Positions 30,819 through 33,040 of a stretch of 60,069 nt of DNA are shown piece by piece. The notes beneath the pieces are model-generated. The model was given only the letters and a program-made list of their open reading frames with translations, made no database searches and was not told the DNA's origin. The stretch spans positions 1 through 60,069 of the forward strand of contig CAMBTP010000014.1 of the NCBI GenBank assembly GCA_945870855.1, in the 5' to 3' direction. Position 1 is the stretch's first letter; each line of letters opens with the position of its first letter. Source of the stretch: Prosthecobacter debontii (GTDB lineage Bacteria > Verrucomicrobiota > Verrucomicrobiia > Verrucomicrobiales > Akkermansiaceae). Made by a program: the position numbers and the translations under genes.

Positions 30819-31802
30819 ATGAAAATCAAAGCCATCGTGTGGATCATGCTCGCTGCGGCGGGGGTAGCTCGTGCCTACGAACCTGCCGCCTCCGTTGCCG
30901 ATCTTGTGGATCTGGAAAAGAAAGTGGCGGCTGTTTCCGCGAAAACGATGCCGGCCACGGTTGCGCTCGTTTCCGAGAATACTGGTTCGTCGGGTTCTGG
31001 TGTCCTTGTTTCCGAGGACGGCCTGATCCTGACCGCCGCTCACGTGGTGCAGGGCATGAAGGAAGTGGATATCTATTTCGCCGACGGCAAGAAATGGCTC
31101 GGTAAGGTGCTGGGCGCGAATTTTTCCAAGGACATCGGCATGGTGAAAATGGTCGAGGCTGGGCCATGGCCGTTCGTGAAGATCGGCGAGTCGAAACCGC
31201 TGGAGGCGGGGGACTGGGTCGTCGCGCTCGGGCACTCGGCGGGTTTCGATCCGGCGAGGACTCCTCCTGTCCGATTCGGTCGGTTGATGTCAGATGGGCC
31301 GGGAAATTATTTCACCACCGACTGCACCCTGATCGGCGGCGATTCCGGCGGACCACTCTTTGATCTTGATGCAAAGCTTGTAGGGATCAATTCCTCGATC
31401 GGGGAGTCATGGAAAAACAACAATCACGCGGGCGTGGATGGCTTTCGCGAGGATTGGGATCGGTTGCTAAAGGGCGAGACCTGGGGCACGCTCCAAATGA
31501 ATCCCATGGCAAATCCGGAGACCCCCGTGCTCGGAATCGGCATGGGCATGAACGAGGGTATCGACGGTGTGCTCGTTTACAAGGTCGAGCCGAATTCCCC
31601 AGCCGCCGCGGCGGGCGTGAGGGTGGGGGATGTGATCCGCTCCGTGGATGGCGACCGCGTCCGCGAGGGTGCGGAACTCCAAGAGGTTTTGGTTAAGCGC
31701 GAGGTCGGTGACAAAGTAAAGCTCGGCATCGTCCGTGAAGAGGCGGAGATTGAGATCGAGGTGGAACTGGTGAAACGGGAGGAACTTTTCAAAGTAAAAT
31801 GA
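30819..31802 (+). CDS. HtrA/DegP-like trypsin-family serine protease with PDZ domain
   Basis: 327 residues from ATG 30819; a TTG four codons earlier is a less likely start. Signal peptide ends near ARAYE. The catalytic triad is intact: His75 in TAAHVV, Asp105 in KDIGMVK and Ser176 in GGDSGGPLF. A single PDZ domain covers about 235-325 (GVLVYKVEPNSPAAAAGVRVGDVI). Such periplasmic proteases degrade or chaperone misfolded envelope proteins. The stop overlaps the start of the next gene by 4 bp, so the two are translated together; the partner is an inactive relative. Confidence 0.9.
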   Translation: MKIKAIVWIMLAAAGVARAYEPAASVADLVDLEKKVAAVSAKTMPATVALVSENTGSSGSGVLVSEDGLILTAAHVVQGMKEVDIYFADGKKWLGKVLGANFSKDIGMVKMVEAGPWPFVKIGESKPLEAGDWVVALGHSAGFDPARTPPVRFGRLMSDGPGNYFTTDCTLIGGDSGGPLFDLDAKLVGINSSIGESWKNNNHAGVDGFREDWDRLLKGETWGTLQMNPMANPETPVLGIGMGMNEGIDGVLVYKVEPNSPAAAAGVRVGDVIRSVDGDRVREGAELQEVLVKREVGDKVKLGIVREEAEIEIEVELVKREELFKVK

Positions 31803-33040
31803 GAACATACGAATTTACTGCCATCAGCGCGTTCCTGCTTTGCGCCAGCTTGTCCGCTCCAGCGCAGCGCGCAGAGGATGAGGTGCCGCTCATGCGTCCC
31901 GACGAGCGCAAGGTGGTGGATGCCCAAGCCGATGAGTTTAACAAGGCGCTTGAGCCGATACTTTCCGACGCGGCAAAATCTGCCGTGACGATCTGGACTA
32001 GAGGCACAAATAAGCCCATCGCTTACGGGACGGTTGTCGGCGATGGCACGAGCATCCTCACGAAATGGAGCGAAATTGAGCGATTTGCCGATATGCTTTT
32101 CGTCAACGGCGCGAAAGACCAAGGTGCGAAGGCAGAGGTTACGGGTGTTTTTACAGAAGAAGATCTCGTGCTTCTATCGATTCCCGCCGAGGCTGCTGAG
32201 GTAGAGGATTTGACTGCGGCGAAGTTTCACCTGTCTGATCTTTCGCTCGGGCGTTTCCTTGTCGCTACAAGGCCGGACGGTAAACTGGCTGGCTTCGGAG
32301 TCGTCGGCGTGTTGGAAAGGAATCTCCGTGAAACAGACAAGGCGCACCTTGGTATCATGCCCGATTTTCAGTATAGTGGCGCAGGAATCCGGATCGCGAA
32401 TGTGCAGCCGGAATACGGTGCGGCCGAGGCGGGTCTTCGCTCCGGCGATGTGATCTTACAGGTGAATGAGCGCAAAATCTCCGGCCTTCTGGAACTCAAG
32501 AACGCACTCAGTGGCAAGAGCCCCGGCGATAAGGTGACCTTGCGCATCGAAACCGCTGGCAAGGAGCGCGATGTCGAGGTTCTGCTTTCCAACCGCCCCG
32601 TGATCGGGCAGTTCGCGGGTGGGCGGCTCAACGCGATGGAACGGATGGGTGGTAAGTTGAATGGAATACGTGACAGCTTTTCCCAGGTCGTGCAGTCGGA
32701 TATGAAAATCCAATCCAACCAAATCGGCGGGCCGGTGGTGGATCTGGAAGGTCGCGTAGTGGGTATCACTATGGCGCGAGCCGACCGGACGCGGACTTAC
32801 ATCATGGGCGGTGCGGCGATTGAAGATCTTTTGAAGAAGAAATCCGATACGGTCGCCGAGGCGCGCACGAAAACCGAGAAGCTGAAGGCGGAACTCGCGC
32901 AACAGAATCGGGCGATGTTACCGGAAATGCGCCGCCAAGCGAAACCCCGCGATCTCCCGCGCACGCGCCGCCACCTCAGCGATCTCCAGCGGCTGCTCGG
33001 CCGGGCGAACCGTGAACTCGACGATCTCGAACGTAGATAA
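31799..33040 (+). CDS. Catalytically dead HtrA-like protein with PDZ inside the protease domain
   Basis: 413 residues, signal peptide ending near SAPAQ. The N-terminal barrel resembles a trypsin fold, but where His is expected (TAAHVV) it reads TKWSEI (Ser91), the Asp region is EEDLVLLSI (Asp122), and the serine-loop sequence is NQIGGPVVDLEGRVVGI, with Ile309 in place of the nucleophile Ser. A PDZ domain (about 183-265, AGIRIANVQPEYGAAEAGLRSGD) lies before that serine-loop segment, whereas in HtrA proteins PDZ follows it. So the PDZ domain appears inserted into the second barrel. The C-terminus (345-413) is charged and helical. It is translationally coupled to the active protease and probably a regulator or substrate adaptor; that function is inference. 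Confidence 0.8.
   Translation: MRTYEFTAISAFLLCASLSAPAQRAEDEVPLMRPDERKVVDAQADEFNKALEPILSDAAKSAVTIWTRGTNKPIAYGTVVGDGTSILTKWSEIERFADMLFVNGAKDQGAKAEVTGVFTEEDLVLLSIPAEAAEVEDLTAAKFHLSDLSLGRFLVATRPDGKLAGFGVVGVLERNLRETDKAHLGIMPDFQYSGAGIRIANVQPEYGAAEAGLRSGDVILQVNERKISGLLELKNALSGKSPGDKVTLRIETAGKERDVEVLLSNRPVIGQFAGGRLNAMERMGGKLNGIRDSFSQVVQSDMKIQSNQIGGPVVDLEGRVVGITMARADRTRTYIMGGAAIEDLLKKKSDTVAEARTKTEKLKAELAQQNRAMLPEMRRQAKPRDLPRTRRHLSDLQRLLGRANRELDDLERR

Follow-up and report, generated by a model that had tools for sequence, protein, structure and literature searches.

The window analyzed here is the whole of a 60,069-nucleotide stretch of Prosthecobacter debontii DNA (contig CAMBTP010000014.1, positions 1 to 60,069, forward strand; draft assembly GCA_945870855.1, 2.98 Mb). 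It contains two overlapping genes. The upstream gene encodes an HtrA-type protease with an intact catalytic triad (the partner), and the downstream gene encodes an HtrA-like protein that lacks the triad His and Ser and is predicted to hold a PDZ domain within its protease fold (the pseudoprotease). Such pairs recur in related genomes, and the pseudoprotease most likely serves as a sensor or regulatory subunit of the active enzyme. Published work is cited below from excerpts of the respective papers.

The gene pair

The two genes and their junction are as follows (aa, amino acids; bp, base pairs).

30819..31802, + strand, partner gene, triad-intact HtrA-type protease, 327 aa (ATG at 30819, stop at 31802)
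31799..31802, + strand, ATGA stop/start overlap of 4 bp from the partner gene to the pseudoprotease gene (seen in the sequence)
31799..33040, + strand, pseudoprotease gene, 413 aa (from the list of open reading frames)

The partner consists of a signal peptide (recognized by eye), a trypsin-like domain and a single C-terminal PDZ domain; Pfam reports a full Trypsin_2 at residues 59-190 followed by PDZ_2 at 236-317. In the pseudoprotease, Pfam PDZ models match residues 184-251 and 190-262, and Trypsin_2 is found only as its last third (profile positions 97-144) at residues 271-323, C-terminal to the PDZ. No models besides PDZ and Trypsin_2 were reported in the Pfam scan of this protein at E-values up to 1. 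A preliminary description of the locus had noted both the 4-bp overlap with an intact HtrA-like gene and a PDZ placed ahead of the serine-loop segment. The overlap is indeed present as ATGA, and the Pfam order agrees with the second point, which the structural model below refines to a position inside the second barrel.

The identical 4-bp overlap was observed in 35 of 104 paired loci. A computed intergenic gap of zero or less was found in 66 of the 104, a figure that may overstate the overlap as gaps were computed from the first in-frame start codons.

Loss of the catalytic triad

The following positions of the pseudoprotease were compared with those of active HtrA proteases.

32060..32074, + strand, TKWSE motif, residues 88-92, where TAAHV is expected, with Ser91 at the position of the catalytic His (alignments)
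32162..32164, + strand, Asp122, the triad Asp, still present
32723..32725, + strand, Ile309, at the position of the nucleophile (alignment of 130 rows)
32774..32788, + strand, ARADR motif, residues 326-330, after strand b11 (also in the Planctomycetota rows)

When a family profile from which the PDZ columns had been removed was aligned to the partners, TKWS91 stood opposite TAAH, Asp122 opposite the catalytic Asp and NQI309GGP opposite GDSGGP. The same positions were read from 130 aligned pseudoprotease rows, comprising 121 non-redundant loci and nine sequences from Planctomycetota. The His position is occupied by Ser in 125 rows, Glu in two and Thr in one, with a gap in two. Ser occurs in none of the rows at the nucleophile position, which is Ile (30), Cys (30), Val (22), Met (20), Ala (14), Gln (10), Thr (3) or Leu (1). 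The triad Asp is kept in 127 of the 129 rows with a letter. Thus the loss of both the His and the nucleophile, as claimed in the preliminary description, holds for the window protein and for its relatives, and with Ser91, Asp122 and Ile309 the protein lacks the His-Asp-Ser triad that marks the HtrA/Deg family (MEROPS S1C).

Other residues around the old active site are specific to the family. Lys89 is present in 126 of the 128 rows with a letter, Arg327 in 125 of 130 and Arg330 in all 130, and the family signature can be written as TKxSE ... ARADR in place of the expected TAAH ... GDSGGP. Because the patterns at the His and nucleophile positions hold across 130 relatives, the pseudoprotease is, judged by its aligned sequences, a conserved family and neither a chance product nor a decayed gene. 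A decaying duplicate or a gene-calling artefact has a practically negligible probability: nothing other than the triad loss was found in its favour, and it is ruled out by the conservation of the 130 aligned rows, with open frames and family-specific invariant residues in both Verrucomicrobiota and Planctomycetota.

The near invariance of Lys89, Ser91 and Asp122 also raises the idea of a new active centre, in which Lys89 and Ser91, both close to where the catalytic His used to be, would form a site of the Ser-Lys type with Asp122 and the protein would be a live enzyme. However, we know of no precedent for such a site in the trypsin fold, and we consider this very improbable.

Position of the PDZ domain in the predicted fold

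The structural features below were taken from an AlphaFold2 model of the pseudoprotease, built with 113 aligned sequences (predicted local distance difference test score, pLDDT, 89.1; predicted template modelling score, pTM, 0.75). It supersedes an earlier model from 26 close sequences (pLDDT 68.8).

31982..32179, + strand, predicted barrel 1, strands b1-b6, residues 62-127 (strands at 62-67, 75-80, 85-89, 100-103, 110-118 and 123-127)
32255..32320, + strand, predicted start of barrel 2, strands b7-b8, residues 153-174, the last being Arg174, counterpart of DegP Arg187 (model and profile)
32348..32593, + strand, PDZ domain, residues about 184-265, predicted to interrupt barrel 2 after b8 and before b9, at loop L3 (Pfam and model)
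32687..32809, + strand, predicted remainder of barrel 2, strands b9-b12, residues 297-337 (model, and the Trypsin_2 match given above)
32693..32695, + strand, Gln299, counterpart of Gln200 in the DegP activation cluster
32810..33037, + strand, predicted C-terminal helices, residues 338-412 (338-346, 352-380 and 386-412)

According to the model and the profile alignment, the PDZ is predicted to lie inside the second barrel, between b8 (residues 163-174) and b9 (297-300), at loop L3, which in DegS and DegP is the sensor loop. The modelled fold is that of a two-barrel trypsin-like protein, as in HtrA/Deg; however, the PDZ is not C-terminal to the protease domain, as b9-b12 come after it. A PDZ between the two barrels was also considered and rejected, since both the model and the alignment place it within barrel 2.

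The sequence profiles point to the same position. Once the PDZ columns were omitted, the profile-profile alignment covered 160 columns of the partners' protease domain in colinear order (probability 99.4, E-value 2.3e-21), and the same profile matched HtrAs among solved sequences (best E-value 6e-24). On DegP (1ky9; numbering verified on the E. coli K-12 gene), profile positions 18-116 ran over chain residues 86-187 and the match ended at residue 187; with other HtrAs it started again, in the alignments that were printed, at the QxD segment ahead of the nucleophile. This break between DegP residue 187 and the QxD segment corresponds to loop L3, the predicted insertion point. The preliminary description had proposed a structural comparison with DegP and had made its reading depend on residues 270-345 completing the trypsin barrel; the profile is colinear with DegP to residue 187, and residues 297-337 complete the barrel in the model. 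If the model holds, a trypsin-type barrel tolerates an entire PDZ domain in loop L3.

Pairing with an active HtrA

A triad-intact HtrA gene lies immediately upstream on the same strand in 104 of the 121 non-redundant loci; 14 encode both proteins as a fusion, two are cut by contig ends and one is unlinked. The catalytic residues of the window partner (His75, Asp105 and Ser176) are all kept in 118 of 118 aligned partners. The orthologous pairs that the preliminary description had suggested looking for are therefore conserved, and its reading of a protease with a pseudoprotease regulator or scaffold is supported, the mechanism itself being one that we infer.

The two proteins also occur in the same genomes. 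At an E-value of 1e-10 the pseudoprotease was found in 53 of 59 genomes (the window's own included), and the same 53 match the partner at 1e-31 or better, a line for partner-type HtrAs chosen after inspection of the list. Both proteins are thus present in 53 genomes and both absent in six. One of the six (G040) had no partner match at 1e-15; in the other five (G025, G037, G042, G045 and G048) the best E-values were 2.4e-27 and weaker, from frames that, like the DegP-like gene of the window's genome, are about 500-550 aa long.

When partner matches above the line were examined, 92 of 96 had a pseudoprotease downstream. The remaining four are two at contig ends (G005 and G034), one in G044 (L170) fused to a divergent, contig-cut pseudoprotease, and one in G056 (contig C38, L169). 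Conversely, 92 of 99 pseudoprotease matches had a partner upstream; the other seven comprise six close to contig ends and an orphan in G056. The window's genome contains a second complete pair on contig C11 and a canonical DegP-like HtrA on contig C8, around which no pseudoprotease match was found.

Fusions and distribution

The window-protein search gave 974 matches at an E-value of 1e-3 (7992 candidates sharing most words scored) and a search with a 46-row profile gave 978 at 1e-20 (7998 candidates scored); in each case the best 120 were examined, and matches beyond these may include ordinary HtrAs. A further protein search was examined for the best 120 of its 150 matches. Family members carry source names such as 'serine protease Do', 'S1-C subfamily serine protease' and 'PDZ domain-containing protein'. 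Of the best 120 among the 978 profile matches, 23 are natural fusions that begin with the active half and are 703-749 aa long. A quick tree was drawn without bootstrap from 22 fused and 106 split rows (128 in all), leaving out the 23 database fusions. On it the fused/split state changes at least seven times, and five of the changes are forced by well-supported branches.

Ten loci in Planctomycetota contain a unit of HtrA plus pseudo-HtrA. Nine are single chains of 767-984 aa; the tenth (L106) is split into two overlapping frames, which could be a sequencing frameshift. In each of the ten, the first half contains a His motif and GDSGG, and the second half contains TKxS[EQ] and ARADR. They were retrieved with a pattern containing the ARADRTRT motif and do not represent a survey.

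These arrangements bear on the possibility that the pseudoprotease is an inhibitor or decoy, a dead protein that would fill a place in the oligomer and hold the active HtrA in check until a ligand lifts the block. Dead homologues can dilute the active subunits of an oligomer, and the stop/start overlap suggests matched production of the two proteins. However, a single-chain fusion, which occurs in several lineages, would leave the enzyme permanently inhibited unless switched, and we regard the decoy as improbable.

In a scan of the phylum, 41 of 387 genomes matched at an E-value of 1e-20. Without four of these (G066, G148, G167 and G265), whose match is confined to the PDZ, the count is 37; as four candidates were scored per genome, the scan may miss members. 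Among genomes coded g18 (e.g. G079, L144-L145), 13 listed genomes of 2.7-3.5 Mb match with two matches each, and 10 listed genomes of 2.2-2.7 Mb have no match at that threshold. Environmental metagenome bins (L076, L077, L082, L083 and L086) contain genes 50-75 % identical to those of the window.

One of the 23 database fusions, a pair with a shortened PDZ region (P0140), is filed under a eukaryote source (eukprot g4055.t1) and probably reflects bacterial contamination of a eukaryote assembly. The fusion in G044 (contig C22, L170:1-3520) is a divergent active plus pseudo protein with TKTSE, cut by the contig end. The 576-aa protein beside it contains, by eye, a pair of dead trypsin-like units, of which the second carries TKASE; in this protein Pfam reports one Trypsin_2 and a PDZ. 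The proteins of this region imply that the family is wider than counted here.

Comparison with known systems

The pseudoprotease differs from HtrA/Deg proteins (DegP, DegS, DegQ and AlgW) in having no triad His or Ser, in carrying its PDZ in L3 instead of at the C-terminus, and in being encoded beside a separate active HtrA. The closest parallel is MamO of magnetotactic bacteria, an HtrA-derived dead protease that partners an active HtrA, MamE (PMC4794232); the window pair likewise combines a broken-triad HtrA-like domain with an active HtrA. MamO differs in its TauE domain (PMC4794232), as none was found in the window protein by Pfam at E-values up to 1, and the word PDZ is absent from the excerpted MamO text (PMC4794232).

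MamO also binds metal, through surface His residues (PMC4794232), and the pseudoprotease might by analogy have been repurposed to bind a ligand or metal, with the partner protease maturing it without being regulated by it. The new, nearly invariant polar set that surrounds the old active site in the sequence (Lys89, Ser91, Asp122, Arg327 and Arg330) would suit such a binder. On the other hand, the 46-row alignment has no His at any invariant or nearly invariant position, and MamO itself is also required for MamE proteolysis (PMC4794232). We consider this reading distinctly improbable.

Plant Deg5/Deg8 resemble the pair in that two paralogous HtrAs share a compartment and Deg5 has no detected activity (PMC3640471). 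However, Deg5 has no PDZ, and both proteins were solved as Ser-to-Ala variants, hence both have the catalytic Ser (PMC3640471).

Other families with a displaced PDZ were also compared. No Peptidase_S41 was found in the Pfam scan of the pseudoprotease at E-values up to 1, and NCBIfam S41 models scored far below their cut-off (the best was prc with 24.6 bits over residues 196-364, its cut-off being 218.6). Prc (S41) differs from the window protein in being an active enzyme, and its protease fold and clan are different from those of HtrA. The likeness is a regulatory PDZ inserted in the protease domain (PMC6686036). SpoIVB (S55) likewise has a PDZ ahead of a trypsin-like domain; there, however, the PDZ is central and the protease domain C-terminal (PMC6581720), whereas the window protein has barrel 1 and b7-b8 before the PDZ. 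The NCBIfam model spore_IV_B gave 17.3 bits against a cut-off of 305.25. An S41-like or SpoIVB-like architecture was rejected on these scores and on the predicted position of barrel 1 and b7-b8 N-terminal to the PDZ.

Dead relatives of serine proteases as such are already known, as a survey of 91 prokaryotic genomes classed 42 of 966 enzymes as putatively inactive homologues (PMC2605481). A survey of microbial PDZ proteins has, in its excerpts, no class with a PDZ inside a dead HtrA fold (PMC6411480). In the open-licence literature (titles and abstract starts), no description of the PDZ insertion, the TKxSE signature or the fixed pairing was found, in line with the preliminary description, whose author was not aware of a described family with such a domain order. 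Protease-pseudoprotease pairs are already known (MamE-MamO); the L3 PDZ insertion, the TKxSE signature and the fixed pairing are apparently undescribed in that literature.

Activation-cluster residues

In DegS, loop L3 comprises residues 176-189, and its Arg178 joins loop LD' in an activation cluster that spans the subunit boundary; the L3-to-LD' relay operates between adjacent subunits, and a comparable cluster in DegP consists of Thr176, Ser183, Arg187 and Gln200 (PMC11642142). The equivalents of the last two are retained in the pseudoproteases. The Arg187 equivalent (Arg174) is present in 119 of 129 and the Gln200 equivalent (Gln299) in 128 of 130, and the two are kept jointly in 117 of 129; ten of the 12 exceptions are from Planctomycetota. 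The Ser183 position is Ser in 101, Ala in 20 and Gly in eight. Four canonical controls (the DegP-like protein of the window's genome, DegP, DegQ and DegS) all have both Arg and Gln.

The active partners have the Gln200 equivalent in 27 of 118 cases. A motif search found the canonical Arg motif in three of the 118, and when the identical two regular expressions were applied to both proteins, both motifs were present in 107 of 130 pseudoproteases against three of 118 partners.

An adaptor or chaperone subunit, whose PDZ would recruit or hold substrates within an HtrA assembly with no allosteric signal, has to be weighed here. Many PDZ columns are invariant across the 26 close relatives, pairing and fusion suit a structural subunit equally, and one planctomycete protein (L107) has four PDZs by Pfam, two of which follow TKASE and precede the serine-loop segment. 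However, an adaptor by itself leaves unexplained why the PDZ is in L3 and why the Gln200 and Arg187 equivalents are fixed in a dead protease. This explanation deserves attention and is, in our estimate, unlikely.

A proposed sensor subunit for the upstream HtrA

Most likely, with a probability of about 0.5, the pseudoprotease is a dedicated sensor or regulatory subunit of the upstream triad-intact HtrA, a reading drawn from sequences and a predicted fold. The two proteins would form one complex, possibly a mixed trimer by analogy with other HtrAs; in a fused chain they may sit next to each other. The inserted PDZ would bind either a peptide or a misfolded substrate, and its movement could be passed to L3 (Arg174 and Gln299), from there to loop LD of the adjacent active subunit, and so switch on its active site. 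MamO was shown genetically to activate MamE non-catalytically (PMC4794232), and because of this the sensor-subunit reading is plausible, though not proven. More tentatively, the pair may be an obligate two-subunit HtrA found across the Planctomycetes-Verrucomicrobia lineage, in which catalysis and signal reception are split between paralogues, the PDZ of the sensor sits inside the relay loop L3, and the live neighbour is switched on in trans (in cis in the fusions).

Several observations weigh against the sensor reading or the fold on which it depends. The active partner carries its own C-terminal PDZ and might regulate itself. At one locus (L063, genome G056) the genes are unlinked, with the partner on contig C38 (L169) and the orphan pseudoprotease on C46. 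Whole-chain Foldseek TM-scores (template modelling scores) were low, 0.24-0.35 among the matches listed; VIA-align re-examined Foldseek's own matches and covers only the families listed there. If the PDZ columns are retained, the profile matches barrel 1 plus the PDZ on the partner (213 columns, E-value 2.3e-30) and skips the serine-loop segment, which is why that segment aligns only when these columns are removed.

The activation cluster is also incompletely kept. Position 174 is Tyr, not Arg, in all ten Planctomycetota rows, and the Thr176 position is not conserved (Thr in three of 130 pseudoproteases, with other letters leading in the partners). In addition, MAFFT places the Arg of the partners' VRxGR motif on DegP Arg187 in 113 of 118 and phmmer pairs them likewise for the window's partner; hhalign takes another register. 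The statement that all active partners have lost the cluster was therefore rejected for Arg, where these alignments disagree with the motif search, and retained for Gln only. Because the Arg register depends on the alignment method, only the Gln difference is firm.

In the HtrAs from which the route of the PDZ signal to the active site was deduced, each subunit combines reception and catalysis, so that the two are difficult to tell apart. If the sensor reading is true, two genes or two halves of a chain do these separate jobs, and the relay between subunits could be tested directly with mixed complexes. It would also mean that two bacterial phyla have conserved a partnership of protease and pseudoprotease, concealed by generic names.

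Neighbouring genes and other observations

Upstream of the pair, on the opposite strand (window 26266-30537, - strand), is a gene for a 1423-aa protein of repeated segments, surface- or adhesin-like by eye. The downstream gene (window 33091-34722) encodes, by eye, a class I fumarate hydratase and is probably unrelated to the pair. After the second pair of the window's genome (contig C11) there is a gene (L005:3672-5546) for a 624-aa product that by eye combines a VacJ/MlaA-type lipoprotein with an alpha/beta-hydrolase, possibly a link to the envelope. Contig C12 of the same genome (L168:287-1834, - strand) encodes a 515-aa protein with a partial Trypsin_2 and no GDSGG, perhaps a pseudoprotease of another kind.

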